Shown here in pieces: positions 2,911-21,075 of a stretch of DNA of 21,075 nt (position 1 is its first letter; each line of letters starts with the position of its first letter). A program made the position numbers and the translations under genes. The notes below the pieces were generated by a model. The model saw only the letters and a program-made list of their open reading frames with translations, did not search any database and was not told the DNA's origin. This DNA comes from a virus. The stretch lies in IMG/VR virus record IMGVR_UViG_3300032050_000965, positions 1 to 21,075 of that record; one strand, given 5' to 3'.

Positions 2911-2919
2911 TGGTTTTCC

Positions 2920-3822
2920 TTATCGGGTGTAGTGAATACGGATTGGATACTTGTCTGCCAACTTCAACGCTTCTTCGTTAAGACGCTGTTGGTAAAGAGC
3001 AAAGATGTAGCGAGATGCAGCAGCACCTGCAGTTGATGGCAACTTAGAATCGTTTAGATCTGCTTCAGCACTAGAGAGATTGATTCGTCCTGCGTCAAGG
3101 TAAGACAATAACTTGTATGCTGCGCCGAGTACGACAACATCCTTGCAAGACTCAGGTAAGCCAGATACGTCAGCAAAATCATCTGTGTTTGCGTCAAGAG
3201 TGTTAGGCGTGGCTGTATACCAAACTTGAATTGTACGACCAGGTTGTACGTTCTCATAGATATTTAGTGTGTTGTTTGTGTTGAAGGTAGCAGCATTTGC
3301 CATCCCGTCTAAGCGCCAGCGATTTACTGGTAGCCATTCTTGGCTAGAACCTGTTGTTTGCCAAGATATAAAGAGTACACCTTCGCAATCATCAGGCAAT
3401 GGGTATGTAACCTGAGATGCGTTAAAGGTAAATGTATAAGAGTTAATAATCCAGAGCTTAGGATAGAAGCTGTTGATTGTGTCGTTGATTGCCTTTTTGA
3501 TGGAGTTACGTGGGAAGGTTGGAGATAAAGTTACCGGCGCATATTGTGCGTGAGGTGATGCAGTTGTTCCCTGATACCCACGACCAAAGCCTGGAATAAC
3601 ATTGAGTACGTTGTTTGCCTTGTCAAAAGAATCAATCCAGATAAGTTCATCATCAATCTCAATGATACCTTTGGCTAGGTTAGATGCTGAGCCAACAGTG
3701 ATTTGTGTGCTGGTAGTTGTTAAACCTGCAGCGTTGGCAACATAAGTGATGCGGTCTTGGCGTAGTGCATAACCTTGTAGGTTAGCCTTTACCTCGTCTA
3801 CCAGTTCGTCCAGTGTTGGCAT
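2920..3822 (-). CDS. Putative head-tail adaptor protein (300 aa)
   Basis: The 300-residue product starts LDELVDEVKANLQGYALRQD, then has a beta module (about 30-98) and FPRNSIKKAINDTINSFYPK (103-122). Helix-rich ends such as VVVLGAAYKLLSYLDAGR (229-246) and RYIFALYQQRLNEEALKLAD (271-290) follow. This matches the adaptor (gp6/SU10-adaptor) type that sits below the portal in podoviruses, as I recall. The beta module (DDELIWIDS, then GFGRGYQGTTASPHAQYAPV) is like the one in the following fibre gene and may be an inserted tail contact. The start overlaps the previous stop as TAATG and has AGAGGA upstream. Confidence 0.6.
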   Translation of the reverse strand: MPTLDELVDEVKANLQGYALRQDRITYVANAAGLTTTSTQITVGSASNLAKGIIEIDDELIWIDSFDKANNVLNVIPGFGRGYQGTTASPHAQYAPVTLSPTFPRNSIKKAINDTINSFYPKLWIINSYTFTFNASQVTYPLPDDCEGVLFISWQTTGSSQEWLPVNRWRLDGMANAATFNTNNTLNIYENVQPGRTIQVWYTATPNTLDANTDDFADVSGLPESCKDVVVLGAAYKLLSYLDAGRINLSSAEADLNDSKLPSTAGAAASRYIFALYQQRLNEEALKLADKYPIRIHYTR

Positions 3823-4883: not shown

Positions 4884-4892
4884 ACGAGAATC

Positions 4893-6846
<1,954 letters not shown>

Positions 6847-6850
<4 letters not shown>

Positions 6851-7131
6851 GATGACACCGCTCTGAGAGCTTGCGCTGCAGGTAGTTGAAAAGTGCCAGC
6901 GATGAGGTTACATACGCCATTGTAATCAAGACGATTAGTAGTAGACGTACCCGCAATCGCATTTAGAACTCCCACTGTGTCTGTTAAGTTTGTTGATACT
7001 GAGCGTTGTGCTGCCCATTGGCGAGCAGCCAATGCTTGGTCAACCATCTCACCTGGTGCTCGATAGGTGCCACCATTAGCCAGACGATTCAGTTCATCTA
7101 ATAGCGTTGTACCGTATTGTCCTAGTGCCAC
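6847..7131 (-). CDS. Conserved phage protein of unknown function, likely structural (94 aa)
   Basis: Translation starts at GTG (7129-7131), with GAGG seven bases upstream. The 94-residue product has LLDELNRLANGGTY (residues 10-23), then QALAARQWAAQRS and RLDYNGVCNLIAG. I recall this pattern from small phage proteins encoded near tail fibre genes. It is helical and lacks membrane segments. Its TGA stop overlaps the TTG of the next gene. The location just before two fibre-type proteins suggests an assembly or tail role, which is inference. Confidence 0.7.
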
Positions 7132-7140
7132 CTATTTACC

Positions 7141-7305
7141 TCACTTCTTCTTTTTACGAGATGCTGCTGCGTTATCTACTAGATTTGGATAAGGTCGTCC
7201 TGCTGCCTTAGCCCGTGCTTTTGCTGCCGCCTTTTGTGCTGGCGTTAATTTCTTTGACTTCTCTTTAGGATTTTTTGTATCCCAGAATGCTGCCTTCTTT
7301 TTCAT
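7141..7305 (-). CDS. Small lysine-rich phage protein (54 aa)
   Basis: The 54-residue product begins MKKKAAFWDTKNPKEKSKKL and contains ARAKAAGRPYPNLVDNAAAS before a KKKK end. The core FWDTKNP and GRPYPNLVDN segments are familiar from small proteins of aquatic phages, without a known function. The start overlaps the previous stop (ATGA at 7302-7305). It is the last of the run of basic small genes and is separated by nine bases from the next gene, whose ribosome site overlaps its end. Confidence 0.72.
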   Translation of the reverse strand: MKKKAAFWDTKNPKEKSKKLTPAQKAAAKARAKAAGRPYPNLVDNAAASRKKKK

Positions 7306-7580
7306 TTGCAACTACAATCCCAAGCGCGAAGCGACTTGTTTATTCTTGAGTTTGGATCTCTAGCTGTCTTACTAGAAGTGTTCTTGGCCTTCATCCCACA
7401 CATACGACCACAGAAAGACTTGCGCCGTCCTGCAGACTTAGGAGACTTAGCAGCCTCAGCCTTTTTAACTGGAGGCTTGAGGTTCATCCCCTGCGCTTTG
7501 GCAGAGGCACGACCTTTTGCATTCAGGCCACCCTTTGGGTTCTTACCTTCTGCTCTCTGCCACGCTGGAGACTTTGCCAT
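7302..7580 (-). CDS. DUF6321-like basic, cysteine-containing protein (92 aa)
   Basis: The 92-residue product begins MAKSPAWQRAEGKNPKGGLN, continues with AKGRASAKAQGMNLKPPVKK, and later has RRKSFCGRMCGMK and RDPNSRINKSLRAWDCSCK. This matches a small phage family I know as DUF6321, although the family number is from memory. Four cysteines (57, 61, 89, 91) are arranged as CxxxC and CxC and could form a metal site or disulfides. The protein is strongly basic, and its role in the virion or in DNA binding is unknown. It overlaps the upstream gene as TAATG and the downstream gene as ATGA. Confidence 0.77.
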   Translation of the reverse strand: MAKSPAWQRAEGKNPKGGLNAKGRASAKAQGMNLKPPVKKAEAAKSPKSAGRRKSFCGRMCGMKAKNTSSKTARDPNSRINKSLRAWDCSCK

Positions 7581-7753
7581 TACTTCTTTTTGCCCATTCT
7601 CTTCTTAGTCATCTTTGCCTGAGACATTGCAATAGCAACTGCCTGCTTGCGACCTGTAACTACCGGACCTCTACTAGATCCTGAGTTCAAAGTACCAGAC
7701 TTAAACTCTTTCATTACCTTAGCAATCTTGGCCTTCTTAGCAGCCTTGTTCAT
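7580..7753 (-). CDS. DUF6496-like basic protein (57 aa)
   Basis: The 57-residue product contains KVMKEFKSGTLNSGSSRGP (residues 13-30 region) followed by VVTGRKQAVAIAMSQAKM. This is the pattern of the DUF6496 family as I recall it: a short helix, a Gly/Ser turn, then a QAxAIAxSxA helix. About a third of residues are Lys or Arg, so nucleic acid binding is possible, but the family's role is not known to me. It overlaps both neighbours by one base (TAATG junctions at 7753 and 7580), so translation is probably coupled through the cassette. Confidence 0.78.
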   Translation of the reverse strand: MNKAAKKAKIAKVMKEFKSGTLNSGSSRGPVVTGRKQAVAIAMSQAKMTKKRMGKKK

Positions 7754-7875
7754 TACTTGGCTGCCTTGCCCATTGCACCTGTCTGGATTGATTCGTATGT
7801 GCAGTACTTCATAGCACCTTCGTACTGCTTGTCAGGTGTTGGGTACTTTGCAATATCTTCTTCGTAGTTTTCCAT
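7753..7875 (-). CDS. Very small unknown protein (40 aa)
   Basis: The 40-residue frame begins MENYEEDIAKYPTPDKQYEG and ends GAMGKAAK. AAGGAG lies five bases before the ATG, and the site includes the previous gene's last codons. Its TAA overlaps the next ATG as TAATG. The product is mildly acidic and tyrosine-rich at the start, with one cysteine. The ribosome site and the overlap on its 3' side support it as a real gene. No family is recognised. Confidence 0.68.
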   Translation of the reverse strand: MENYEEDIAKYPTPDKQYEGAMKYCTYESIQTGAMGKAAK

Positions 7876-7877
7876 TG

Positions 7878-8150
7878 TTACTCCTTAAATGTCATTGAGA
7901 TTCCATCGAATGCTTTACCGGCCTCGTTGGAAAGTTGAACTGCTGCATCTATATCTTTACTCTTTGTTGAACGTGGTTCTATACCCTGTCGTGTTGCATC
8001 GTAATAGGACTGTAGTTCCCTATCGTGTTGCTTAGCAGTAGGTATACCTCTGTGGTTTGCCACACCTACGCTCAACTCTAGTTCGCCAATCTTGCAACCG
8101 AAGCATCCTTCTACATACTCAAGGTGCGTTGTTCGTCTATGTAAACTCAT
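7878..8150 (-). CDS. CFGC-motif phage protein of unknown function (90 aa)
   Basis: The start is ATG at 8148-8150, in an ATGA overlap with the previous stop; a TTG five codons upstream is the alternative. The 90-residue protein begins MSLHRRTTHLEYVEGCFGCK. It has a CxxC at residues 16 and 19 and nearby histidines at 4 and 9, which might bind a metal ion. The second half (RELQSYYDATRQGIEPRSTK, then SKDIDAAVQLSNEAGKAFDG) looks helical. I recall very similar short proteins in actinobacterial phages, and this is one of the best host clues in the window. Function is unknown there too. Confidence 0.75.
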   Translation of the reverse strand: MSLHRRTTHLEYVEGCFGCKIGELELSVGVANHRGIPTAKQHDRELQSYYDATRQGIEPRSTKSKDIDAAVQLSNEAGKAFDGISMTFKE

Positions 8151-8470
8151 ACTGGAGTTATCCAACTTCCGTATCCGGCAGCGGTAAGGACTCCTGCTTG
8201 GTAATCACTAATCTCGTACTCGTGACCACCGAGGAAGTAGTAACTAGCTGCAGCCAGATCATCTTGGCTTGGAGTTAATGTTGCTATAACTTGAGTTCCA
8301 TTAACAATCAAAGTCTGACCGCGTGGAATGTCTGTAAGGCTTGGAGCAATATCACCATCAATGGTTCCACCATTAAGGCGACGACCTGCAAGGCGTGAGT
8401 ACGGTGTGAACTCGTTTAAGCCTGCGCCCCAGGTTTGCCACTGGTACGGAGTTACTAATGTGTATGGCAT
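8147..8470 (-). CDS. Unknown small structural protein after the capsid gene (107 aa)
   Basis: The chosen start is ATG at 8468-8470, preceded by AGGAAAGG with a six-base gap. A TTG two codons upstream is in frame but would overlap that spacing. The 107-residue protein begins MPYTLVTPYQWQTWGAG, is rich in Tyr, Thr and Gly, and contains a beta-like middle (GQTLIVNGTQVIATL) and a C-terminal SDYQAGVLTAAGYGSWITP. No transmembrane segment or enzyme motif was seen. Small genes just after the capsid gene often encode head decoration, completion or neck proteins. I cannot assign one. Its TGA overlaps the next ATG. Confidence 0.65.
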   Translation of the reverse strand: MPYTLVTPYQWQTWGAGLNEFTPYSRLAGRRLNGGTIDGDIAPSLTDIPRGQTLIVNGTQVIATLTPSQDDLAAASYYFLGGHEYEISDYQAGVLTAAGYGSWITPV

Positions 8471-8533: not shown

Positions 8534-9712
8534 TTATCCGTTTGTTGCTGCAGACTCAATGCGATAGAGCGCTGCTTCACGAAGGCGTGCAAAGCCTCCG
8601 AAGTAGTACCAACCGATTGTGCGGAAACGACGTAGCGCGTCAATCTCTGGACCGATAACGGTTGAGATGTCTGCTGCTTGTGCTTCAGCCAATGCTTCAC
8701 GACCTGCGATGATCGCACGGTAGTTGTTGGTGAATGTAACAGTACCTGTGTCAGCAACTGATGTGATATTAGATGCTGTAAGTGCATAGGTAAATGTTGT
8801 TGATGTTGTGCCTGTGATGGTGTATGTACCATTGACACCTGTGTTAGTTGTAGCAGCAACTGTTACAACCTGACCTGTTCCAAGGCCGTGAGCAACTGCT
8901 GTAGTGATTGTCACTACGTTAGATGTCAAAGCAACGTTGGTGATTGCAACTGTAGGTGTGATACCTGCAGCAAGATTCAAACCGTTTAGAACACGTGGTG
9001 TCTCAACGATGAAAGCGCCTTCGATAACGCCTACTGCACCAGCAACGAACGGTGTACGCTCAACGTACTTTGTTAGCTCCTGGAATCCACCTGTACCAGT
9101 TTCAGCGCGAAGGTCTGCTGACTGACGTGGGTGTAGGTATGCAGCATATAGTTCACCCATACGAGGCAATGCCTTGTTTGTGCGTAGTGAAACAACAGCG
9201 TTACGGATATCCGATACTGTCATTGTGTCTACTGGTAGAACTGTTGCTGATGATGTTGGAGCAGTTCCTGATGGACCGTTTGAGTAGATCACGTTAGTTC
9301 CTGCTGAGAGGACCTGACCTACAACGTTGTCGATAGAATCTGCTGCGTTGTACGCGATGATGTCAGCAAGTGCTGAATCAACGTCGTTGAATGAAGTTAG
9401 GTTTAACTTCTTTGTTGTTGTAACTGCTGAACCGTATTCGTTCAGTGTTACTGTAACCTGTGATGGGTTACCTAGTGCGATGCTTGATACATCTGAAGAT
9501 TCTGTCAATGTAGAAGTAGCTTGTGCCAAATCTGAGTAGATTGAGAATACAACTGATGATCCTGGCATTGCCTGTTGCACTGGCTTAACATCTGCAAGTG
9601 AACGCATAACAGGAATGGAACGTAGTGCCATTCTTACATACTGATCGTATGCTGCTTGTACGAGGTTGCTGATGCTAGACGTGGTGGTAGGGGTACCTGT
9701 TGGAATTGCCAT
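8534..9712 (-). CDS. Major capsid protein, N4-gp56-like HK97 fold
   Basis: The 392-residue product forms the head shell. The N-terminal part (NLVQAAYDQYVRMALRSIP, residues 17-35), the central AAYLHPRQSADLR (190-202) and the C-terminal REAALYRIESA (378-388) match the N4-gp56 type of major capsid protein as I know it. Residues about 252-328 look like an inserted beta-sandwich module (VVTITTAVAHGLGTGQVVTV, then NGTYTITGTTSTTFTYAL). Such modules are common in phage structural proteins and probably project from the capsid surface here. The gene follows the scaffold by 30 bases with AAAGG nine bases before the ATG, and a GAAA-loop hairpin follows its stop. Confidence 0.85.
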   Translation of the reverse strand: MAIPTGTPTTTSSISNLVQAAYDQYVRMALRSIPVMRSLADVKPVQQAMPGSSVVFSIYSDLAQATSTLTESSDVSSIALGNPSQVTVTLNEYGSAVTTTKKLNLTSFNDVDSALADIIAYNAADSIDNVVGQVLSAGTNVIYSNGPSGTAPTSSATVLPVDTMTVSDIRNAVVSLRTNKALPRMGELYAAYLHPRQSADLRAETGTGGFQELTKYVERTPFVAGAVGVIEGAFIVETPRVLNGLNLAAGITPTVAITNVALTSNVVTITTAVAHGLGTGQVVTVAATTNTGVNGTYTITGTTSTTFTYALTASNITSVADTGTVTFTNNYRAIIAGREALAEAQAADISTVIGPEIDALRRFRTIGWYYFGGFARLREAALYRIESAATNG

Positions 9713-9742: not shown

Positions 9743-10213
9743 TTAGAGTCCAGACAACCTAATAACTTCATCCAATTCTTCTCTGCTATTTGCATTCATT
9801 AGTTTTTGCATAATATCTCCGTTGTGTTCTGGTGAAACACCAGAGTCTGCGGAGTTAGTCATACGCTTATATGCTGCAGCATCGTTTGGATTTACGTTAG
9901 GTGTTGCCTGGGTCTGACTTGTTTCAATACCGAAAACATCGGCATAGTCTTCAAGCCATTTAGATACAGACTCTTCAGTTGGGTCTATATCCTGTGGGAT
10001 AAATGAAGCAATTTTGCTGTTTACCCCGCGACTTGCGAGGGCATCCTTTATTGCTCGTTCGCGCTGCGCTTTGTTCAAAGACTCGAACTGAGCCTTAAGC
10101 TCATTGAGTTCTTTGTCTTTTTGCTTAGACGCTTTGCGTAGTTGCTTTACTAGGTCGTTAGATGAGTCATTCGTATCGAAGTCGTCATCATCCTCGTAGT
10201 CGTAATTGGACAT
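9743..10213 (-). CDS. Capsid scaffolding protein (156 aa)
   Basis: The scaffold would guide major capsid protein into a procapsid and then be lost. The 156-residue product is acidic at its N-terminus (YDYEDDDDFDTNDSSND). A helical, coiled-coil-prone stretch follows at about residues 22-60 (KQLRKASKQKDKELNELKAQ), then a segment with SKIASFIPQDID and a C-terminal helix (REELDEVIRLSGL). This composition, the small size and the position immediately before the major capsid gene are the usual signs of a phage scaffold. AAGGA lies six bases before the ATG. No protease domain is present, so a separate protease or none must be used. Confidence 0.78.
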   Translation of the reverse strand: MSNYDYEDDDDFDTNDSSNDLVKQLRKASKQKDKELNELKAQFESLNKAQRERAIKDALASRGVNSKIASFIPQDIDPTEESVSKWLEDYADVFGIETSQTQATPNVNPNDAAAYKRMTNSADSGVSPEHNGDIMQKLMNANSREELDEVIRLSGL

Positions 10214-10334: not shown

Positions 10335-11510
10335 TTATAGTACTCCGGCTCTGTCTCGTGCTATCGCACCAGCACCGGCACGTCCGCTAAATGCGGCTTC
10401 TTCTAATGATTTTAATTTTTCAGTTTGTTTTTTAGCTGCTGCTGAACCAGGAATATTTAGAATATTTGCTTCTGCAGTTTGCTGTGTGTATGGATCTTGC
10501 TTATAGATAGATGCTAATTGTCCACCACGCATAGTATCTTCAGCAATAGTAGCTGCTGCTTGCTGGTATCTTTGTCCGGTTACCCCAGCATTGGCAAGTG
10601 CTTCAGCACCTGCAAGAGTTGCACCAAGTCCTGCTCCTAGTTGAGCACCGCCAATTTCGGCAGCAGTTACCTTGCGCTTAATGTTCTCAATAGCGTTCTT
10701 AGGATCAAGTGTGTAAGCCAAGATATCACCGTTTGTAATATCAGGGTAGAATTGCTTGAGTGCCTGAGTTACCTCTGGGTTGGCGTTGAGTACACGCTTT
10801 TGTGCAGTTGCGATACGATCTTCTAGTTCTATATCACTGATATCGTTTGCAATTATTTTTTCAAATCCTTCTTGGCGACCCATTTCACCACGAGTGTAGT
10901 AAGACTCTGGCAATCCATAGCGACGCATAATGTCTTGGTAGGCATCTTCCTTACCAATGTACTCAGCCTCTGATAGTGCACGAAGACCCTTAGCCATACG
11001 CTGTGCGTTAGCAGCAAAGCGCTTCTTGTAAGCATCTGTATCGCGTAAGCGAAGAGTTAATTCTGATGAAGATAAACCTTGCTGGATAAACTGCTTAAGT
11101 GGTTCTACTAATGCGCCTAATCCATTTGCATCAAACTGCTCAAATAATAGATCGTAGGCCGACTGTCCTTTAAGACGCTTTTCCTCTTGCATTTCATCGC
11201 CAACTATTGTTGCTCCTGATGGTGTTGCACCAGCGCCTACTAGTGTTGCACCAGTGCCTGATCGTGTTGGCTTATTCTTTAATGCCTTAGCTGCTAAGGC
11301 AGCATTGACAGATTTACCTACATCAAGTCCAGTTTTACCAGCAATTGCTGCTGCATATTCTTCATCGCTAAGAGAAGTATTAGGATCATAAGTATCGCCA
11401 TAATACCCAGAAGCGTTAATACCACCGCGTCTTTCAATCTCTTCTTTAGTGATTGTCCCGCGTGCAATTGCAGCCGCTTCTCGAGCTGCATCTCTCTTAA
11501 ATTCAGCCAT
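10335..11510 (-). CDS. Putative internal virion protein, helical and alanine-rich (391 aa)
   Basis: The 391-residue product is strongly helical in composition (Ala, Glu, Lys, Gln). The middle (about residues 115-260) contains TDAYKKRFAANAQRMAKG and LSEAEYIGKEDAYQDIMRRY. That layout resembles the C-terminal part of the preceding 508-residue protein, so the two may be distant relatives. A Gly/Ala-rich stretch follows (AEIGGAQLGAGLGATLAGAE, about residues 277-296), which could associate with membranes. The ATG lies three bases after the previous TAA, with AGGGG as a modest ribosome site. It is the last gene before the largest intergenic gap. A head-core or ejection role is inferred from position only. 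Confidence 0.6.
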   Translation of the reverse strand: MAEFKRDAAREAAAIARGTITKEEIERRGGINASGYYGDTYDPNTSLSDEEYAAAIAGKTGLDVGKSVNAALAAKALKNKPTRSGTGATLVGAGATPSGATIVGDEMQEEKRLKGQSAYDLLFEQFDANGLGALVEPLKQFIQQGLSSSELTLRLRDTDAYKKRFAANAQRMAKGLRALSEAEYIGKEDAYQDIMRRYGLPESYYTRGEMGRQEGFEKIIANDISDIELEDRIATAQKRVLNANPEVTQALKQFYPDITNGDILAYTLDPKNAIENIKRKVTAAEIGGAQLGAGLGATLAGAEALANAGVTGQRYQQAAATIAEDTMRGGQLASIYKQDPYTQQTAEANILNIPGSAAAKKQTEKLKSLEEAAFSGRAGAGAIARDRAGVL

Positions 11511-11513
11511 TAT

Positions 11514-13040
11514 TTACCCCTGGAATCCAAAGTCACGAAGGACTCTAAGTGCTGTGTCAGATACTTCTTCTTTAGCCTGATTAGTAAACTGCCAACGGTT
11601 GTCTTTTCTTAACATCTTCTGGTAATCATACAAAGACATTTCTTTGTCAGGACCGATAGCACTGCGAAGTACTTGGTCATCGAGAGTAATACTCTCTGGG
11701 TTAATCTCTAGTACAGATGCCATAAGTCTCTTGTATGGGTTGTAAATAGTGTCAAGGTCTACGCCTTGGTCAAGTAAAGAGGATACCTTTTCAGGTAGTC
11801 CTAGCTTTGCTGTGCTACGAATAATCTGCTTAAAGGTTTCAATAGACTCACCTTGTGCAAGGTTTTGTAGCCATCCTTGGATACTAGAACCAAAGTTCTT
11901 GTCTAGGTCTAATCCATTTGCCTTGGCAGTTTTTCTCAAGTCAGCAAGATTCTCTCCTGCTTGACCTCCTACTATTCCACCAGGCTTGTATGAAATCTTA
12001 GCTCTGATGCGTTGAGCAACTATTGCTGGCTGGTTCTCATAACCTAGGTCATAGATATCACGAGAGATTAAATCTAGTTCATCTGGAGATACTGTTACGC
12101 CAAGGCGCTTAGCCTCATCTGCTATAACCTGCTTCGTATAAGTAAGTCCACGACCATATTCAGTAGTTCTAAGAAGTTCATCTGCATTAGAACCAGTCTT
12201 AATTAGGTCATCAAACTGACGCTTATAGAATCCACGTTGGCGAACTGCATTAGCGTTTTGCTTAAACCAAGTTGTATTCTCAAGTTCTTTAACAAATTGA
12301 TCTGGTGTTAAATCATCGTCTGTATTAGGAACACCATCCTTACCTATAGCTTTACGTAATAAAGCCTGAAGGTCTGGATTAGTCTTAAAGATTGTGTCAA
12401 TAGAACCATAGTTCTTTGCAACCTGGTCAATGATTTCATCAATTGTTAATTTCTTTTTCTCAGCAGGTGTAGGTTCTGGTTCTCCTGGCTTTGGCTTTGG
12501 AGCACCTGGCTTTGGTTTTGGACTACCAGGTGTAGGTGTTTTTACAACACCAGGTGTGACCGCCGGAGTACCAGGTGTCACTGCTGGAGTGCTAGGCGCT
12601 TGGGCAGGTGTACCAGTAGGGCCATCATTTGCAGTAGTAGGAACTTGAGGCTTTGCTACCTTAATTTCTGGAAAACTGCGCTCAACATCTGGTGCTATAA
12701 CACCAATTCTGCTTGTTGCTTTGTTAATATCTCTCTTAATAGAAACAGTATCTTCTCCACGTGCTTCTGCCTTAGCAAGTTTTGCTTGATCCTCTTTGAT
12801 CTTTTTATTAAGATCTAGGTATTCTTCAGCAGTCTTTTCTAATTTAATAAGTCTGTTGAGTTCTGCCATTGCTGCCTTGGATTCACGCTCAAGAACTCTA
12901 ATCTGTTCATTGATTGTTTTTACTTCAGCATCTGTTACAAACGGCTTCTTCTTCTTTTCTTTAAGGTCACGGATATCATTAACCTTGGCTGAATACTCGC
13001 CAGAAACTTTTTGCAGTTTAGTTTTAATTGCATTAGCCAT
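11514..13040 (-). CDS. Putative internal virion protein with N-terminal coiled coil and proline-rich linker (508 aa)
   Basis: Three regions are visible. Residues about 1-115 are Lys/Glu-rich with heptad-like spacing and probably form a coiled coil (VKTINEQIRVLERESKAA). Residues about 129-197 are a Pro/Thr/Lys linker with tandem TPAVTPG (151-164) and two PKPKPG copies (174-186). Residues about 198-508 form a helical domain with short segments such as NTTWFKQNANAVRQRGFYKR and ISRDIYDLGYENQP. The extended layout fits a protein that lines the head core or is threaded through the tail tube. It shares a 1-nt TAATG overlap with the preceding gene. A minor tail or lysis-associated role cannot be excluded, though no hydrolase motif is seen. 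Confidence 0.62.
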   Translation of the reverse strand: MANAIKTKLQKVSGEYSAKVNDIRDLKEKKKKPFVTDAEVKTINEQIRVLERESKAAMAELNRLIKLEKTAEEYLDLNKKIKEDQAKLAKAEARGEDTVSIKRDINKATSRIGVIAPDVERSFPEIKVAKPQVPTTANDGPTGTPAQAPSTPAVTPGTPAVTPGVVKTPTPGSPKPKPGAPKPKPGEPEPTPAEKKKLTIDEIIDQVAKNYGSIDTIFKTNPDLQALLRKAIGKDGVPNTDDDLTPDQFVKELENTTWFKQNANAVRQRGFYKRQFDDLIKTGSNADELLRTTEYGRGLTYTKQVIADEAKRLGVTVSPDELDLISRDIYDLGYENQPAIVAQRIRAKISYKPGGIVGGQAGENLADLRKTAKANGLDLDKNFGSSIQGWLQNLAQGESIETFKQIIRSTAKLGLPEKVSSLLDQGVDLDTIYNPYKRLMASVLEINPESITLDDQVLRSAIGPDKEMSLYDYQKMLRKDNRWQFTNQAKEEVSDTALRVLRDFGFQG

Positions 13041-13738
13041 TAGCGCACACCTAACGCACTCTTAAAGGCATCGTAGTAACTAAAGACTTTATTGGCCTTA
13101 GCCTCATCTGTGCCTGCAATTTGCTGAATCAAGAACTGCCCCTCGTCAATGCCACCTGTTGTAGTAGCAGTTTGAACATCGCCAGATGTTGAGTATGTTG
13201 TAACAGTAGGAGCAGCCTTCTGCGCCTTCTGTAATGCTGATGTGTACTTCTTTAACTCTTCTTTGGTAGCACCTCGACCAACAACATCTTCAAGAACTGC
13301 ATTAATAAGAGTTCTAGCAGTTGTTTCATCAGCGATACGGATATCTTTGCGGATAGATGGGCCATCACCTGATGCACCTTCTGCAATACGAGATGCTGCT
13401 TCTTGGTCTAAATATTGTCCTACAGTAAACTGTTGTCCTACCATTTGACTCTGGAGTGCAGCCTTCATAGAAGCTGTTGAGTAAGCAGAAAGTAACTTGT
13501 CTGAATACTTGCCAGTAACTGCTACCTTGTATCCAGCGTTCTTTAATCTTTGAGCAAGGATCTTACGATCTGGTTCTGACATATTGTACAAAATGCTTGC
13601 ATCTTGATTAGCAGTTACTGTTGTAGCTTCATATCCTCCGCTAACGCCAGTATTGGAGATGGTTGTACCAGATGGGATTATCTGGCTTTGCCAAGTCTGC
13701 ATAGCTCCTTGGCGTGCTTCATCAGCAGATTTAGCCAT
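13040..13738 (-). CDS. Putative internal virion protein (232 aa), unknown function
   Basis: The preferred start is ATG at 13736-13738, with GGAG six bases upstream. An in-frame TTG at 13748-13750 would place that ribosome site inside the gene. The 232-residue product has Ser/Thr-rich stretches (residues about 20-45 and 178-197) flanking mainly helical segments. The segment VVGRGATKEELKKYTSALQ (about residues 147-165) followed by a TTTGGID stretch recalls a protein family in actinobacterial phages, but that is recollection without a search. It lies four bases after... in effect just below the giant gene stop, and its own stop overlaps the next start as TAATG. It is probably part of the same internal-protein group. 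Confidence 0.6.
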   Translation of the reverse strand: MAKSADEARQGAMQTWQSQIIPSGTTISNTGVSGGYEATTVTANQDASILYNMSEPDRKILAQRLKNAGYKVAVTGKYSDKLLSAYSTASMKAALQSQMVGQQFTVGQYLDQEAASRIAEGASGDGPSIRKDIRIADETTARTLINAVLEDVVGRGATKEELKKYTSALQKAQKAAPTVTTYSTSGDVQTATTTGGIDEGQFLIQQIAGTDEAKANKVFSYYDAFKSALGVR

Positions 13739-13739
13739 T

Positions 13740-16700
13740 TTAGTCTCCAATCAATCGTGAGAATAATACATCGTATGCTGATTTAGCATTTGGATTTGCT
13801 CCTGCAATTTCCAACAATTTTACTTTAATGCTTTGACGCAACAAGTCCTTGTAGTTTTGTTGTGTATCACCGTTACCAGTAATAGAATCACGAGCAGTCT
13901 TATAGGCTTCAAACTCATTGACCATCTTAGAAAGTAACGCACGAGTCTTTGGCTGTGCTGTTACATCCTTATCGCTAAGCATATTAACTAGGTCTTGGTA
14001 TGCACGTTGGCGTTGGATCTGACGACCTGCACCACCGGTACCTAGTTCTTCTTGCAACACTGGACGTGTATTCTTGTACTGGTCTGCCCAAGTATTCCAT
14101 TGTTGACGAATCAAGCGCTTTCCTTCATCTGAAGGAGTACCTGCTAGATCTGCCTCGTATAGTTCCTTTTGGCTGTAGTAGTACTGAATGTCCTTGGCAG
14201 CACCAACTTCTTTGAGGTAATCATCAAGAGTTTTGCTCTTCTTCAGACCTGCTTGGAAGATAATCTTGTAAGCATCGAAGTTAAAGTCACCCTTTGTAGG
14301 TATAAGGAATGGAGCGCCTTCCTTGTACTTCTCAAGCAATGGCTTGTTTTCTTGAATCCAAGTATCTGCACCATCTACTGCACGAACCACAGCTACTGTA
14401 TTGCGCTCTGATTCAGATACTGTAAATGGCATCTGGTTTGGATAGAGTCTAATCCACTCTTTTGTAGTCCTATCAATGTCGCCATTGTATGTTTGCAATA
14501 GATTATTAAATACTTGCTTGAAGTTTGTACGCTCATTGTCGCGTACCCACTTAGCCATATCAGACTTGAGTGTAACTTGTGGTGATGCTGGAGCAATGAA
14601 TCCAAAGACTGCACGAAGTGCTAGAACGCTTAGCGTTGCAGACTGCAACTTGTCTTTGTACTCCTGTAGTTCACCAGGTGTAGGCGGAACTTCTACTTCT
14701 TGACCATTAACAATCTCAATACGAGACTTTGGGCTATAGCCTGCAGCCTCTAGGTAGGTAACACCCTTACGGAAAGCAGATGCGTACTGAGATGATCGCT
14801 CATCCTTGTTTAATGCGCCCAAGATACGGTTAACGTGTGCAGGTAATACAGCGTTTATCATAGGCGCATCTTCGCCATACTCACCTAAGAAAGCTCTTTC
14901 CAATTCAGCAAACTGAGGTATTAAGTTACCCATTACTTTAACTGGAAACGCTGCTAATGGACCTGCAAATGTAGGAAACAATGAGTCAGGGTTCATAGAA
15001 GGTGTAATCATCTTCAACTTACCTGAGAACTCTACTGGCATTGGAATTTGAAACGCTGTTTCTACTCCAAATGCTTTCATTATTCCATTGACTGCCTTGT
15101 ATACAGGCTCTAATCCTGGATAGAAGAAGTACTGCTCGCCATTATCATCTGTCTGTACGAAGCCAGAGTGTGAAATACCCTCATAAGTAAGTGCTGCACG
15201 AGACAAAGATTCTGGGTTGTACTTTACTGTGCGTACAATACGACGATAGAAGTCTTCAGTAGCACGATAGAATCGTGCAAAGTTACGACCAGACATAGCC
15301 AACTGGCTACGCACTGCAGGATTGTCAACAAATGCTAGAACTCTCTCACGAGCAAGGTCTTCTGCAATGTCAACTAAGTGACGAGTTGCTTTTTCCTTAC
15401 CCTTTTCAAGTGCTTCACCTGTTAAACCTACAGTAAAGCGGTCCATAATAGATTTCTCAAAGCCTGTTGCACGCATATTCTTGCGAATCTGTGTTAACTG
15501 GTAGATAACTAATGGCTCACGTGAGAATCTAGCGTTAGCTTCTCCCATATAGCCCCATAGTTTTTCCATAATTCCAGCAGCAAACTGGTTACCTTCGGTA
15601 ACTGGTACAAGTACTGGACCGTTGATCCACCTAGGAGCAAGAGCAATGTCATCAAGTCCTGGTAGATCATCTAGTCCAAGATTATTTGCAGATACTTTTA
15701 CTTTTCCAAGTCCATCTGTGAATCGGATTTTGCTTAGTAGGTCCTGGTTAACATCACCATTTTCCTTAGACAAGAGATTCTTAACAGCCTGGAAAGCACG
15801 CTGTGCGTGATTCTGTTCTGTTTCACCAGGGATACTGTAAAGCTGAAAGCGCTCACGTTCTTGTTGAGTTAGACTCTTTAGGTAAGTAACAATTTCATCA
15901 ATTGCTTTACCTTCATCATTAAGGTTAGCAATAGCAAGGCTACCAATTTCATCATTTGCTACACGACTAATCTGTACTAGCCAGCCTAGACGACTTTCTG
16001 TGCTTGCGATTGGACTAAATGGTGCGTATGAACGCTTGCCATAGGCTTGCTTGTATGCAGTTCCGTCATAGGTTAATGCAGCCATCTGGCCATACTTTGC
16101 AACATCATCTGTTGCTGCCATAAATTGATCTGCACCACGAAGGCCGTTCTTACCGCCTTCACCAATGATACGCATAGTTTCATCTAGGCGACCAAATTTT
16201 GCAAACTCTGTTAGGAACTCTGCTGCCTCTGGATCAAGAAATTTTCCAACCATTGAGTCAAGGATTGCTTCTGCCATAACAGTCTGTGCTGCATTAACAT
16301 CGCCAGCATCTGCTGCTGCTTTAATCTTTGCATTAAAAGTGTCTACTTGTTTTTTGCGAACAATTTTGTTAATGAAACCTAATTTTCCTTCACCTGATGC
16401 AACACGCAAAGTTGTTGATAATAAGCGTCCTTTTACTACTCCCCAAGGAGAATCACCGACTGCTAGGTGAAGCATTAAATCTTCAGCAGCATTACGTACT
16501 GGAAACTTAGGACCAGCTAGAGTTCCAAGAACCCAGACAGATGTCATATCATCTGCCCATTTCTGTTGGGATAGACCCATAACATTATCAATGATTCCAG
16601 AACGAGCAGATAAGCGATCTAGGTCTTGAATACTAGGAGTTGAGATAGTCTCAGATAGTTGAAAGTTAAACAACGCAGAACGCTGCCCATTAGGCAACTC

Positions 16701-18470
16701 GTCAGGGTTGACGCGCTTAGTAATCTCATTACCTGCTTCATCAATCTCACGAACGATAGTAGGTGAGGCATAAGCCTTTGGAACGCCCTTGCTACCAAAG
16801 TTACGCAGGAATGTTCTTCCAGCTTCTGACTTATCTACACCACGAATAGTTGCAAGTGTATACCAGATACCTTCGTAGATTTGTTTGCGCTGACCTTCGT
16901 TGCCTGCAGTAAATGCTTCTGCAATAATCTTTGCGTGGTAACGAGAGTTAGCAAGACGAGCTAGACGATATACCTGTGTTGATGCGTCATCTGCCAGTAC
17001 ATTAAACTGGTTATCACGAAAAAATGGAATGGTTGAGAACTTACGTGCAAAGCGGTCAATGCGTCCTTGAATCTGACGCAAAGGCATACGTGTAGCTCCG
17101 TCAGAACCTTTGATACGACCAACCTGACGCTCTAAACCTGCAAGGTCTGCAACATCATCTGTTAGTCCAGCAGCAATATCTTCATATTGGATTGTGCCAG
17201 TACCATAGAAGGCATCAACAATCTTTTGACCAACTTCGTCAATGTTAAAAACTTTGTTTGCTGTTCTAAATGTAGCAATACGTGCCTTGCGTGCAGGACT
17301 AAGTGTAGGAACAAGTGGAGTCATACGTGCTGCTTGTCCACTAACAATGCTCTTTAGATCTACCACATTTAGTAAATAATTTCTTGCAGTTGCTGCGTCT
17401 TTAACGCCAGCTTTAATAAACTCATCTATAGCTGCTGGACCAAACTCTGGTGCGATACGACGTAGTTCATCACTAACAGCAACCTGAGCGCGTAGATCTC
17501 TAGTTGTATTACGTATCTTACTTAGTTCGTCTAGTTTTTCACCATAGAGATTAAAAAAATCTACTACACCCTTTTGCTCAAATACTTTATCTAGTCGCTG
17601 TGTATTTCCAGCAACAGCAAATAGATTACGACCATAAGTAAACTTCTCTTTACCAATAACATTAAATAGTAAGAAGTCTCCGGCATCGTATGCCTTCTTA
17701 GCCTTACCTAATATTAGTGTTGGGTCAGCAAAAATGCGATATGTTGCATCTCCAAGTCCAGATATACCTTTATAGAGAAAGCCTGAGCCTTCCATTGAAC
17801 CTGGAAGTAATATGTTTGCAAGTGCGCGACCAGGAGAATACTTGGCAGCATTGACCTTATCTAGCGCATTTTGAAAATCTTTAACATCTTCTTCTGTGCT
17901 ATAGCGTAGATCTGCACGACGCGCAATCTGCTTTTCAATCTCAGTACCTTCTGCAATGATCTTATCAAGCGGTGTACCGCCTGCTACCTTCATAGCAACA
18001 TTGATTAAGTCATTACCAAATTCTGTTTTAGCACGTGAAATACGATCTGGGCTAAAGACCATATCGCCTTTATCGTTAGCAATCTCAAAGGCTTTACCGA
18101 TATTTACGCCTTGGTCTAATGCAATAGCACCAGTACGATAGATGCGAGTCATCGCATCTGATACTTCAGTTAATGCAGCAAATGTTCCACCGATAACAGC
18201 CTTAATAGGAGCTGTTGCGTAATGAAATGCTGTTCCAAACCAACCACGCTTTTGCTCAGGTGGCGCATCTTCTGATTCGCCAAACATAGCAAGGTGAGCG
18301 TTCTGTTGGTCTTGAGTCATTTGACCAAACTTCTGTTGTGCAACTGGTGCAGGTAGAGCAAGTAGGGTCTTGTGAGAATCAAGAAGTTTTGCTAAACCAT
18401 CAACTTGTGACTTTTGTGATGGATTAAGACCAGCCTGTGCTGCCGCAGCAATTAAATTATTCTGCGCCAT
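13740..18470 (-). CDS. Giant putative internal virion / DNA-ejection protein (1576 aa)
   Basis: At 1576 residues this is by far the largest gene. It is mostly charged and helix-like, with one weakly hydrophobic stretch at about residues 77-103 (HYATAPIKAVIGGTFAAL) that could insert into or lie along a membrane. No signal peptide or protease motif was seen, nor the polymerase motifs of N4-type virion RNA polymerase. A C-terminal part (from about residue 1115, with YFFYPGLEP, FLGEYGEDAP and FGFIAPASPQ) resembles large uncharacterised phage virion proteins I have seen. Location between portal and scaffold and linkage to three other large helical proteins suggest a core or ejected protein comparable in role to T7 gp14-16. 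A tape measure is less likely, because no tail-tube genes are nearby. Its ATG directly follows the previous TAA. Confidence 0.6.
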   Translation of the reverse strand: MAQNNLIAAAAQAGLNPSQKSQVDGLAKLLDSHKTLLALPAPVAQQKFGQMTQDQQNAHLAMFGESEDAPPEQKRGWFGTAFHYATAPIKAVIGGTFAALTEVSDAMTRIYRTGAIALDQGVNIGKAFEIANDKGDMVFSPDRISRAKTEFGNDLINVAMKVAGGTPLDKIIAEGTEIEKQIARRADLRYSTEEDVKDFQNALDKVNAAKYSPGRALANILLPGSMEGSGFLYKGISGLGDATYRIFADPTLILGKAKKAYDAGDFLLFNVIGKEKFTYGRNLFAVAGNTQRLDKVFEQKGVVDFFNLYGEKLDELSKIRNTTRDLRAQVAVSDELRRIAPEFGPAAIDEFIKAGVKDAATARNYLLNVVDLKSIVSGQAARMTPLVPTLSPARKARIATFRTANKVFNIDEVGQKIVDAFYGTGTIQYEDIAAGLTDDVADLAGLERQVGRIKGSDGATRMPLRQIQGRIDRFARKFSTIPFFRDNQFNVLADDASTQVYRLARLANSRYHAKIIAEAFTAGNEGQRKQIYEGIWYTLATIRGVDKSEAGRTFLRNFGSKGVPKAYASPTIVREIDEAGNEITKRVNPDELPNGQRSALFNFQLSETISTPSIQDLDRLSARSGIIDNVMGLSQQKWADDMTSVWVLGTLAGPKFPVRNAAEDLMLHLAVGDSPWGVVKGRLLSTTLRVASGEGKLGFINKIVRKKQVDTFNAKIKAAADAGDVNAAQTVMAEAILDSMVGKFLDPEAAEFLTEFAKFGRLDETMRIIGEGGKNGLRGADQFMAATDDVAKYGQMAALTYDGTAYKQAYGKRSYAPFSPIASTESRLGWLVQISRVANDEIGSLAIANLNDEGKAIDEIVTYLKSLTQQERERFQLYSIPGETEQNHAQRAFQAVKNLLSKENGDVNQDLLSKIRFTDGLGKVKVSANNLGLDDLPGLDDIALAPRWINGPVLVPVTEGNQFAAGIMEKLWGYMGEANARFSREPLVIYQLTQIRKNMRATGFEKSIMDRFTVGLTGEALEKGKEKATRHLVDIAEDLARERVLAFVDNPAVRSQLAMSGRNFARFYRATEDFYRRIVRTVKYNPESLSRAALTYEGISHSGFVQTDDNGEQYFFYPGLEPVYKAVNGIMKAFGVETAFQIPMPVEFSGKLKMITPSMNPDSLFPTFAGPLAAFPVKVMGNLIPQFAELERAFLGEYGEDAPMINAVLPAHVNRILGALNKDERSSQYASAFRKGVTYLEAAGYSPKSRIEIVNGQEVEVPPTPGELQEYKDKLQSATLSVLALRAVFGFIAPASPQVTLKSDMAKWVRDNERTNFKQVFNNLLQTYNGDIDRTTKEWIRLYPNQMPFTVSESERNTVAVVRAVDGADTWIQENKPLLEKYKEGAPFLIPTKGDFNFDAYKIIFQAGLKKSKTLDDYLKEVGAAKDIQYYYSQKELYEADLAGTPSDEGKRLIRQQWNTWADQYKNTRPVLQEELGTGGAGRQIQRQRAYQDLVNMLSDKDVTAQPKTRALLSKMVNEFEAYKTARDSITGNGDTQQNYKDLLRQSIKVKLLEIAGANPNAKSAYDVLFSRLIGD

Positions 18471-18875
18471 TTATAGACCTCGTGATGCAGCTCGCTGATA
18501 CAAGATCGCAATTTCACCAGTTTGATCGTATGGAATCATCTTTGCTAATACATCAGATAGTTTTTCAGTTGCTGGATTCATACCTAGTACTTCTGGACCA
18601 GGACCAGGGCCTAACCTATTACCAGCCATAATGTCTTCAGTTGGGCGCTGTGATGGTGCAAATAATTCTGTTACTGGTGCCTGTTCTGCAGCTTCACGTA
18701 CATCTCCTGCACGAGCAGGACGTACATCACCAGTCTTGGCAAGCGGAGCACCTGACTTAATAGCCTGTGTCTCAACGCCTTCGCCGTATGCTGTAGAACC
18801 TAATTCTAATTTATCAGTACGTGTGGAGAATTTACCTGGACCTGCTGGTCCAGCCAGTGGATTCATCATACTCAC
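18471..18875 (-). CDS. Putative small structural protein of unknown function (134 aa)
   Basis: The 134-residue product starts at a GTG (18873-18875) that overlaps the previous stop in a GTGA junction and has GGAGG seven bases upstream. A start 48 bases further upstream is in frame but would overlap the previous gene by 52 bases and lacks this ribosome site. The N-terminal two thirds are Gly/Pro/Ala-rich and probably disordered (NPLAGPAGPGKF near residue 5, LGPGPGPEVLG near 88). The last 35 residues look helical (EKLSDVLAKM). The TAA stop is followed directly by the ATG of the giant gene. Small proteins of this composition occur beside portals in other phages as I recall, but no function is assigned. 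Confidence 0.7.
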   Translation of the reverse strand: MSMMNPLAGPAGPGKFSTRTDKLELGSTAYGEGVETQAIKSGAPLAKTGDVRPARAGDVREAAEQAPVTELFAPSQRPTEDIMAGNRLGPGPGPEVLGMNPATEKLSDVLAKMIPYDQTGEIAILYQRAASRGL

Positions 18876-19087
18876 TGTTGTTCCTCCTCTAATTTTTCTA
18901 AGTCTGTTGCCATATCTTCCCAAGCCCTATTGGTTTGAGTAAGATGATTTGATTGATAAATTGATAACTCCATTAGTTCACCTGTTAATGTTTCAACAGA
19001 TGAAGCAATGTTATGTAAAAAGCCTATACCGACAACAACAAAATCAAGAAAGCGCACTGGACGAGAAATGTAATTATTATCTTTCAT
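18872..19087 (-). CDS. Small protein of unknown function with a short hydrophobic N-terminal segment (71 aa)
   Basis: The 71-residue product has an uncharged stretch at about residues 13-29 (FLDFVVVGIGFLHNIAS). This could be a short membrane-associated or buried helix, and it is followed by an acidic, glutamate-rich C-terminal half ending DLEKLEEEQQ that may be helical. AAGGAG lies nine bases before the ATG. Its TGA stop overlaps the GTG start of the next gene in a GTGA junction, indicating coupled translation. The size and single hydrophobic segment recall small lysis proteins, but there is no lysis gene neighbourhood, so I leave the function open. Confidence 0.65.
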   Translation of the reverse strand: MKDNNYISRPVRFLDFVVVGIGFLHNIASSVETLTGELMELSIYQSNHLTQTNRAWEDMATDLEKLEEEQQ

Positions 19088-19115
19088 CGCCCAGTGCTCC
19101 TTCTATTAAAAGTTA

Positions 19116-19256
19116 TTATCCCTTTTTTACTGCGTTGCCACGACGGCCTGCTGGCATCATTGATGGAACTACCTTGCCACCTGCTGGCTTAGATGTGTCC
19201 TTCTTGCCTTCGACTGGCTTTGACATTGGCGCTGCTGCGCGAGATCCCTTGTTCAT
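19116..19256 (-). CDS. Small basic protein of unknown function (46 aa)
   Basis: This 46-residue frame begins MNKGSRAAAPMSKPVEG and ends RRGNAVKKG. It is rich in Lys, Arg, Ala, Gly and Pro, with no cysteine and no hydrophobic segment, so it is probably soluble and disordered. An excellent ribosome site (GAGGAGG, seven bases upstream of the ATG) strongly supports translation even though the gene is short. It follows the portal stop by 17 bases and is the first of three small genes between the portal and the giant protein. I do not recognise a family. Position suggests a virion or assembly accessory protein. Confidence 0.72.
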   Translation of the reverse strand: MNKGSRAAAPMSKPVEGKKDTSKPAGGKVVPSMMPAGRRGNAVKKG

Positions 19257-19273
19257 ATTTACACCTCCTCTGC

Positions 19274-21034
19274 TTAAGCTGCGCCGGTGATACCAGCGAG
19301 TAATTGGGCTATATCGGGTCTTTGACCAGCAGCAGGGGCCATACCACCTTGTTCTTGTGGAGGTTGCGCTGAGGCTGGGGCGGGGGCCGCACCTGCTGCT
19401 GGAAGTTGTTGTTCCATACCTGGTGCCATAGGTGGCATCGCTGGGGCTGGAGGTGGTGGTTCTGGTGTAAATGCTTTTTCGATTGTGCTCTCTAGCGATT
19501 GGCCCTTTTGCCGACCTTGGATAACAGATGCAATGCGGGTGATAATCTCACTAGGGTCTTGGCCTTGCGCTGCAAGGGCCGGAATGGCTTGAGCATACTG
19601 AGCAACAGCCACGCGCAAAGAATCGCGCATTTCTTCGATATCAACACGTTGTTCCTCCTGCGTAACATTCAAGTCCATTGGAATCTCACGACGTACATAG
19701 TCACGAGATACGAGCTTGTCTGAACGCATTTGTAGTAATGCAATGATGGCACGGTTTGGATCCATACCAGACATAATTCCGTAGCGTACATCTACGCCGT
19801 ACTCACCCTTGATGTCACGAGATGGTGTGTACTTTAGAACGTAAGGTGTTCCATCATCTGAACCCTTGATGGTCTTTGGAATACCACCAAAGATTTTCTC
19901 GTCTGCTTCAAAACAAACAGAGATAAGTTCCTGGAACATACGAGCAAATTGTGCTTGTGCTGCCTTGATCTGTGTATCAAAGCCAGCCTGTAGTGCTTGC
20001 ACACCACGGCCTGTTACAACTGATGCATCAATGTTACCTGAACGAGATTCAGGATAACGAGCACCAAGGCGTAGTTCACGCTCTAATACACCAGATTCTG
20101 TAAAGACTCCAGGTGGTAGTTCTAGCGGAACGCGACGAATACCTTGTGGATTAGCAGAACGCATAATGGAATCTGGACCAAGTGCCAACTCTTGCACATC
20201 CTGTGGGATAGCAATAGGTGCTTGGATAGATTTTTCTGCTGCTTGGATCTGCAATACTGCAAAGCGAGCACGAGCTAACTGTACAGATAGAACATCATCA
20301 AACTGTCCACGTGCTTCACCGTCAAGTGAAGAACGCATTACGACAGATGCCATTGCCTTACCTAAGATGTTAGGCGTGCGTGATAGAACAAGGTTCTTAC
20401 GCTCTGGTAGATAGAGCAAGTCCTGGTCCTTGTCGTGGTACTTGACCATTGAGATATAAGGAGAAGATAAAGCGTACTGGTTCTTACCTAGGATTAAATC
20501 GTAATACTCTGGGTATTGTGCCGCTAGTGTCTCTGCATCGGTAACGATAACCTGAGTTACAGACATAACGCGACCATAACGATCTAACTCTGGGTAGGTA
20601 CCAAATGGATTGAGCATACGGATACGAGGGTTGTTATCCTCAAAGTCCATCTCAACCATACCGATACCAAGACCGTAGGTGTTATACCAGTCTGCTGCTG
20701 TGTACATCTGCAGTTGTAGGTCAGAGTTTGTTACATAGAAGTTTGCAATACGAGTTCTGGTATCTGCAGCCTTGCGTGCAGCGTCAGAAACCATATTGGT
20801 TGCTGAACAGTTAAAGGATGGCAGTGGTGCCATTGCTTCTGCTAAGTCACGTGCTGCTACGTCAATGAAGTTTGCAACCAGAGGCTTTGGATATTCCTCT
20901 GAAAACATTGCAGGGTATACCTTAGAGATATCTCCCTGACGCACCGAGAGCACATCACGCATACGTTGATCTCGCGCTGATGAGCGAGTACGTAAGCGTG
21001 CGAGCTTAGCGTCAACTTCTTTGACTGATAACAA
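19274..21034 (-). CDS. Portal protein (head-tail connector)
   Basis: This 586-residue protein is the likely dodecameric portal ring, through which DNA is packaged and ejected at one capsid vertex. The length, the acidic and aromatic core with LNPFGTYPELDRYGRV (about residues 140-155), and a position ahead of scaffold and capsid genes all fit portals of short-tailed phages. Residues from about 517 to the end form a proline/alanine/glutamine-rich low-complexity tail, probably disordered. The start is TTG at 21032-21034, with AAGGA seven bases upstream; no ATG or GTG in frame precedes it within the window, and the frame stays open to the window edge. A longer product starting outside the window is possible but unlikely given the ribosome site. 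Identity rests on recalled family features, not on a search. Confidence 0.8.
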   Translation of the reverse strand: MLSVKEVDAKLARLRTRSSARDQRMRDVLSVRQGDISKVYPAMFSEEYPKPLVANFIDVAARDLAEAMAPLPSFNCSATNMVSDAARKAADTRTRIANFYVTNSDLQLQMYTAADWYNTYGLGIGMVEMDFEDNNPRIRMLNPFGTYPELDRYGRVMSVTQVIVTDAETLAAQYPEYYDLILGKNQYALSSPYISMVKYHDKDQDLLYLPERKNLVLSRTPNILGKAMASVVMRSSLDGEARGQFDDVLSVQLARARFAVLQIQAAEKSIQAPIAIPQDVQELALGPDSIMRSANPQGIRRVPLELPPGVFTESGVLERELRLGARYPESRSGNIDASVVTGRGVQALQAGFDTQIKAAQAQFARMFQELISVCFEADEKIFGGIPKTIKGSDDGTPYVLKYTPSRDIKGEYGVDVRYGIMSGMDPNRAIIALLQMRSDKLVSRDYVRREIPMDLNVTQEEQRVDIEEMRDSLRVAVAQYAQAIPALAAQGQDPSEIITRIASVIQGRQKGQSLESTIEKAFTPEPPPPAPAMPPMAPGMEQQLPAAGAAPAPASAQPPQEQGGMAPAAGQRPDIAQLLAGITGAA

Positions 21035-21044
21035 TGTGGGGTCC

Positions 21045-21075
21045 TTACTTAGACTTCTTGTATAATCCTGGGTAC
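21045..21075 (-). CDS. 3' end of an upstream gene (unidentified; possibly terminase)
   Basis: Only the last codons of the preceding gene lie in the window. One frame reads YPGLYKKSK and ends in a TAA at 21045-21047 that overlaps the AAGGA ribosome binding site of the portal gene. Another frame reads VPRIIQEV and ends in a TAA at 21049-21051. The overlapping stop and ribosome site resemble other junctions here, so I prefer the first frame. A large terminase subunit commonly precedes the portal in phage late operons, but nothing in these few residues proves that identity. Confidence 0.3.
   Translation of the reverse strand, partial: YPGLYKKSK

Follow-up and report, generated by a model that had tools for sequence, protein, structure and literature searches.

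Ejection proteins are described in short-tailed phages of Gram-negative hosts such as SU10, T7 and P22, where several large, cysteine-poor and mosaic products are encoded together (SU10 gp20-gp24, with a gp24 of 1473 amino acids (aa); T7 gp14-16; P22 gp7, gp20 and gp16), some sets including one wall hydrolase. The genes follow the tail genes in these phages, and podovirus internal virion protein genes are highly mosaic and generally lie right of the tail tube genes (PMC10386132). A 2022 review describes ejection proteins in podoviruses of Gram-negative hosts, also lists mycobacteria, and reports them as absent from phi29-like phages of Gram-positive hosts (PMC8954989). Internal virion proteins were earlier noted in variable islands of marine phages, unexplained there (PMC3909814). 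LanE43AprE7 and LanE43AprF5 (E7 and F5), two phages grown in culture on 'Ca. Planktophila', were described with an '8 kbp genomic island' of hypothetical proteins; E7 has three of these and F5 four, and none was given a homologue in its counterpart (Kavagutti 2023, PMC10202952). Here we analysed the virus record IMGVR_UViG_3300032050_000965 (the window: the whole stretch of 21,075 bases), in which genes for a small protein (p150), a 1576-aa giant and proteins of 232, 508 and 391 aa stand between portal and scaffold. On the sequence comparisons described below, these genes probably encode, as one cassette, the ejection (internal virion) proteins of a short-tailed phage that infects freshwater actinobacteria.

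We favour an ejection cassette because homologues at the same locus in Streptomyces phages bear virion-type wall hydrolases, because the lineage is short-tailed (an SU10-type adaptor, and a 16-nm podoviral tail in Abafar, a Beephvirinae member; PMC11536984), because the whole set is exchanged as a block between sister phages, because its products are almost cysteine-free like known ejection proteins, and because some giants carry an ADP-ribosyltransferase (ART) domain and one E7-type giant a GNAT-like domain. The 'actinophage ejection or core complex' offered in an earlier model-made annotation of these letters (the preliminary description) is thus the best-supported reading. For packaging, ejection, exit order and conduit we infer the following course. 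Since the genes lie between portal and scaffold, the proteins would enter the head as it assembles and sit close to the portal, and would exit through portal and tail ahead of the DNA. In the 508- and 391-aa proteins, the N-terminal parts that relatives exchange may locally open or bind the cell wall, and the ejected proteins could refold to form a conduit across wall and membrane, with the giant reaching furthest and, in some relatives, carrying an enzyme domain into the cytoplasm.

Five coupled genes and their relatives

All five genes lie on the minus strand, as does the whole block from portal to adaptor, in the order portal, p150, giant, 232, 508, 391, scaffold, capsid and small genes; next come a collagen-like gene, a glycosyltransferase-like gene and the adaptor. 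The preliminary description had claimed four large coupled genes between portal and scaffold, and their open reading frames (ORFs) are indeed found there, with gaps of 1, -1 and 3 bases. The coupled set has five members, however: p150 is counted in because it directly adjoins the giant (spacing 0) and is exchanged together with it. A further 121 bases separate the 391-aa gene from the scaffold gene, and no promoter-like excess was found in the cassette region. The mechanically called ORF of the 232-aa gene begins at a TTG and would give 236 aa. When the window was shuffled 100 times, no open frame longer than 258 codons arose. The four large genes are kept in dozens of other contigs; p150 is kept in 88 loci and matches PHROG 8200, a family of unknown function.

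Searches with the giant retrieved 23 close loci, and a giant profile more than 550 candidate stretches; the order of the cassette genes was identical in every one of the more than 100 related loci examined. Among annotated phages, portal, 508, 391 and capsid matched Streptomyces Beephvirinae and Planktophila phages, and the giant matched Planktophila phage E7 only (E7-type giants are 28-31% identical to that of the window). No cassette relatives were found in the bacterial genomes scanned. WhiB is a marker of actinobacterial phages; it was present in 17 of the 19 records tested, including that of L015, which has a giant 98% identical to the window giant, and the host of the window phage is probably an actinobacterium.

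The Beephvirinae cassette, exemplified by Manuel gp10 (1646 aa), gp11, gp12, gp13 and gp14, has the same order as the window (portal, p150-like, giant, p232-like, p508-like, p391-like, scaffold, capsid), with detectable homology for each member; its products are labelled hypothetical, peptidase, glycosylase or minor tail. Manuel gp12 and gp13 each contain a match to the 508-aa core, which in gp12 is preceded by an NlpC/P60 peptidase (Pfam 2.6e-29). Across Streptomyces-type loci the first 508 copy carries NlpC/P60 in nine of nine, and the second carries a transglycosylase domain (SLT or SLT_3) in five of nine. Whereas these loci have two p508 paralogues with wall hydrolases, the window has a single p508 with a coiled-coil-like passenger and no recognised enzyme; it also lacks the tRNA array that precedes the scaffold in Manuel and Fabian. 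Profile comparison joined the window and E7-type giants to Streptomyces-type giants (E 1.6e-5, 753 colinear columns) and the F5-type giants to the same group (E 4.2e-5); these E-values are single pairwise tests, backed by colinearity and synteny. Judged by these profiles, the giants of the window and of Streptomyces phages are distant homologues that have diverged far.

The giant itself has no insert and had no Pfam or PHROG family match, and Pfam revealed no recognised enzyme domain in it. The weakly hydrophobic stretch that the preliminary description placed near residue 77 is real (residues 77-103, Kyte-Doolittle 1.1) but gives no evidence of a membrane helix: even the giant's maximum (1.6, residues 1275-1293) does not exceed the mean maximum of shuffled giants (1.8). 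An N4-type virion RNA polymerase, a comparison proposed there, is not supported either. Pfam found no single-subunit RNA polymerase domain, and the N4 mini-virion RNA polymerase (mini-vRNAP) rows that topped the Foldseek list for the giant were meaningless (TM-score 0.05, probability 0.04). Matches of the giant profile to Beclin-1 and Psb28 were set aside as coiled-coil or chance.

The predicted-structure search proposed earlier, run for the giant and the 391-aa protein, gave no match to a proven ejection protein. The model of the giant, which covered residues 377-1576, was poor (predicted local distance difference test (pLDDT) 62, predicted template modelling score 0.36) and gave no Foldseek match with E below 0.2. 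The AlphaFold2 model of the whole 391-aa protein was better (mean pLDDT 82.5). It had no match in the PDB, and a viral library returned only relatives, almost all unnamed; one fold relative bears the name 'LysM domain containing protein', which we counted for the ejection reading.

Other details of the smaller proteins noted in the preliminary description were borne out. Charged, heptad-like sequence makes up residues 1-125 of the 508-aa protein and would suit a coiled coil; residues 126-195 form a linker with 28.6% proline; and residues 281-320 of the 391-aa protein are 52% glycine or alanine. No enzyme domain was recognised in the window's 508-aa protein. The 232-aa protein and the 508-aa core are fused in many relatives, and this suggests joint action of the two. 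A comparison of the 508- and 391-aa cores for shared ancestry gave short, weak matches only. Two 508-aa homologues, of 887-891 aa (L009:9413-12073 and L093:9724-12396), carry the C-terminal core unit three times in tandem.

Block exchange, divergence and cysteine depletion

E7 and F5 are 96% identical over E7 positions 2833 to 8372 and 98% identical over 16922 to 25476, with no nucleotide match between 8372 and 16922, a region that is exactly the cassette. Identity is lost within the first third of p150 at one end and within the final codons of the 391-aa homologue at the other, and the replaced block comprises the p150 body, the giant, a 232/508 fusion and 391. The F5 block encodes a far-diverged giant of 1711 aa and distant homologues of p150 (1e-9), of the 508 core with p232 (1.6e-16 and 4.8e-7) and of p391 (1.2e-15). 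The published 8-kbp island matches this cassette in size and content, and its locus and protein families are those of the window. Although the E7 and F5 islands were described as lacking homologues in one another (PMC10202952), the F5 products are here distant homologues of the p150, p232, p508 and p391 families. The pair constitutes a natural experiment: one host, a near-identical virion and a different cassette.

Divergence is similarly concentrated in the cassette. Between the window and one relative (L083), identity is 96% for the portal, 56% for the giant, 44% for 508, 49% for 391 and 79% for the capsid; against another (L005) it is 94% for the giant, 65% for 232, 31% for 508, 62% for 391 and 98% for the capsid. 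A drop across the cassette was also seen against L095. The quickest-changing stretches are the N-terminal parts of the 508- and 391-aa proteins; against L015, the flanks of the N-terminal gap in 391 are 95% and 90% identical. Mosaic exchange and divergence faster than that of head genes characterise podovirus ejection sets, and both are seen here. The cassette also stands among the structural genes of a phage judged short-tailed by its SU10-type adaptor and by the tail of its relative Abafar.

Cassette proteins of the window family contain one cysteine in 203,673 aa, as compared with 5.1 per 1000 aa in the portals and 0.27 in the capsids of the same contigs, and F5-type giants have none in 30,057 aa. 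This poverty spans giants that are ~30% identical and others that are nearly unalignable; the sequences are related, so we put no probability on the count. In reference phages (L159-L164), 12 of 19 ejection or internal proteins were cysteine-free, as against 4 of 32 other virion proteins (Fisher p 0.0004), with 0.85 and 8.1 cysteines per 1000, respectively. T7 gp15 and gp16, P22 gp7, gp20 and gp16, and SU10 gp20-24 have none; depletion was also seen in Sf6 ejection proteins and, more weakly, in epsilon15. The cysteine found in the Streptomyces NlpC/P60 copies is the catalytic Cys33. We found no literature report of cysteine depletion in ejection as compared with other virion proteins, and the signature is empirical. 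Because the lambda tape measure (gpH) is likewise cysteine-free, the signature points to proteins that pass through a channel and not to ejection alone. Absence of cysteine may serve as a simple sequence screen for portal-channel travellers.

Enzyme inserts in the giants and rival explanations

Recognised enzyme domains occur in the giants of certain relatives. In five F5-type giants (L111, L116, L118, L119 and L120) an ADP-ribosyltransferase domain, matching Pfam PF03496 with up to 2.6e-18, is inserted mid-giant, after about residue 820. At the same insertion point four others (L112-L115) have a different, ParB-like insert, a reading drawn from a motif and from Pfam scores below threshold (E 0.02-0.03), and other relatives have nothing. 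We had considered an intein in F5-type giants and dropped it once the ART match was clear. One E7-type giant (L128, 4633-4920) has a 96-aa acetyltransferase-like insert (PF00583, 1.4e-4) at a point corresponding to residue 583 of the window giant. Phage ART proteins, T4 Alt among them, are carried in the head and injected (PMC5512222), and a large predicted virion protein with ART, GNAT-like or ParB-like domains recalls Alt and the polyvalent proteins (PMC5512222). Polyvalent proteins are strings of enzymes, however, whereas the giants of the scanned relatives have at most one recognised inserted domain and the window giant none.

These inserts, in a large protein devoid of cysteine, would also suit a giant whose main role is to be injected and act on the host as an effector carrier, like a polyvalent protein or the N4 vRNAP, with only the smaller proteins aiding DNA entry. 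Yet most giants, the window's included, lack a recognised enzyme domain, the backbone is kept without cargo, and the N4 polymerase comparison gave no match, so that we consider such a carrier unlikely. The same domains, together with the wall hydrolases on the 508 core, are sensible only outside the head, which argues against an internal core that remains in the head, unejected, and guides the assembly of the head or the spooling of DNA on the portal. Although the head-morphogenesis position of the genes, their coupled translation and their exchange as a set would fit a core, it should track portal and capsid; instead the cassette diverges far faster and has been replaced next to a retained portal, scaffold and capsid, making this quite an unlikely account. 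A tape measure accompanied by minor tail proteins of a long-tailed phage is highly improbable: the genes precede scaffold and capsid, the adaptor is of SU10 type, Abafar has homologous genes and a 16-nm tail, and no tail tube or tape measure family was detected among the scanned proteins of Manuel and E7 (part of the E7 set). Its support comes from the giant's size, its helical content and the lack of cysteine that it shares with the lambda tape measure, and from the 'minor tail protein' labels in several Streptomyces records.

Several observations weigh against an ejection cassette. Sequence searches of PHROG, Pfam and the PDB gave no match to a proven ejection protein, nor did Foldseek runs on two models. 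Profile comparison against single T7, P22 and SU10 sequences gave no matches, but the portal, capsid and adaptor controls failed likewise; with these failed positive controls, and a giant model of such low confidence, the homology negatives are weak. The window's own cassette proteins have no recognised enzyme domain, hydrolase included, and the likeness to sets with a wall hydrolase comes through the Streptomyces homologues. The position between portal and scaffold differs from that in T7, P22 and SU10, phages of Gram-negative hosts without detectable sequence homology to the cassette. Lambda gpH shares the cysteine signature, and capsid and scaffold are low in cysteine too. We found no proteomics for any cassette member.

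New here are the identification of this lineage, the finding that phages of one host swap the set whole, and the enzyme-domain insertion sites. The preliminary description called the complex 'undescribed', which holds in that it is not on record as an ejection set, but its members are recorded as hypothetical, 'minor tail' and 'peptidase' proteins and as an unexplained island. If the ejection reading is true, actinobacterial podoviruses possess their own ejection machine, and one of two unexplained hypervariable islands in phages of very abundant freshwater bacteria acquires a function. More tentatively, as a possibility short of probable, the cassette might represent a separate ejectosome lineage for Gram-positive hosts. 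In such a lineage the giant would double as a delivery vehicle with loadable mid-protein insertion sites (ADP-ribosyltransferase, acetyltransferase-like, ParB-like), hydrolases and coiled coils would be passengers on a common carrier core, and the set would be exchanged wholesale between co-occurring phages; post-adsorption entry, and not receptor binding alone, would then be a rapidly changing determinant of which phages infect the abundant acI actinobacteria of fresh water.

Features and flanking genes of the window

Coordinates are collected in Table 1. The portal, scaffold and capsid assignments of the preliminary description proved right by tblastn, PHROG and Pfam matches.

Table 1. Features of the cassette and its flanks, in window positions
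Feature	Position	Strand	Evidence or remark
Portal, 5' end cut by window edge	19274..21073	-	tblastn vs annotated Streptomyces portals, 44-45% identity; conserved flank
p150 gene, small first member	18471..18875	-	likely GTG start (18875) preceded by AGGAGGA; TTG form longer, to 18923
Giant, 1576 aa, cysteine-free, predicted ejected internal protein	13740..18470	-	
Giant, site at ~residue 583	16710..16750	-	empty in window; acetyltransferase-like insert in L128
Giant, best-conserved block, ~residues 1060-1120, NFARFYRATEDFYRRI...HSGFVQTDDNGEQYFFYPG	15111..15293	-	alignment and profile alignment; recognisable in Streptomyces giant
232-aa protein, ATG start	13040..13738	-	in many relatives one polypeptide with 508-aa core
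508-aa protein, whole	11514-13040	-	
508-aa protein, N-terminal part, exchangeable; charged helices followed by Pro-rich linker	12456..13040	-	nucleotide similarity to L004, L005, L012 lost here
508-aa protein, conserved core, ~residues 196-508	11514..12455	-	core bears NlpC/P60 or SLT domains in Streptomyces phages
391-aa protein, whole	10335-11510	-	
391-aa protein, exchangeable N-terminal part, ~residues 1-108	11187..11510	-	window vs L015: no match in 11194-11505
391-aa protein, conserved all-helical core, ~residues 109-391	10335..11186	-	phrog_8424 E 2.8e-87
Scaffold-like protein	9743..10213	-	phrog_7813, weak scaffold-family matches; conserved flank
Major capsid protein	8534..9712	-	Pfam Phage_capsid_3 3.8e-17, phrog_1357 1.6e-71; conserved flank
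SU10-type head-tail adaptor, short-tail signature	2920..3822	-	Pfam SU10_adaptor 1.6e-8

The window capsid has 392 aa, as against ~311 aa in many relatives, the extra stretch lying at about residues 250-330; L011 is also without it. Between portal and p150, some 400 bases (18876-19273, minus strand) have no gene assigned, and E7 and F5 have a 178-aa ORF there. Methyltransferase-like (32-856) and glycosyltransferase-like (3822-4883) genes, read by eye from the translation, stand among the tail genes. The collagen-like repeat tail gene (4893-6512) is a further variable region of the window, and the second island in E7 and F5 includes collagen-like proteins (PMC10202952).

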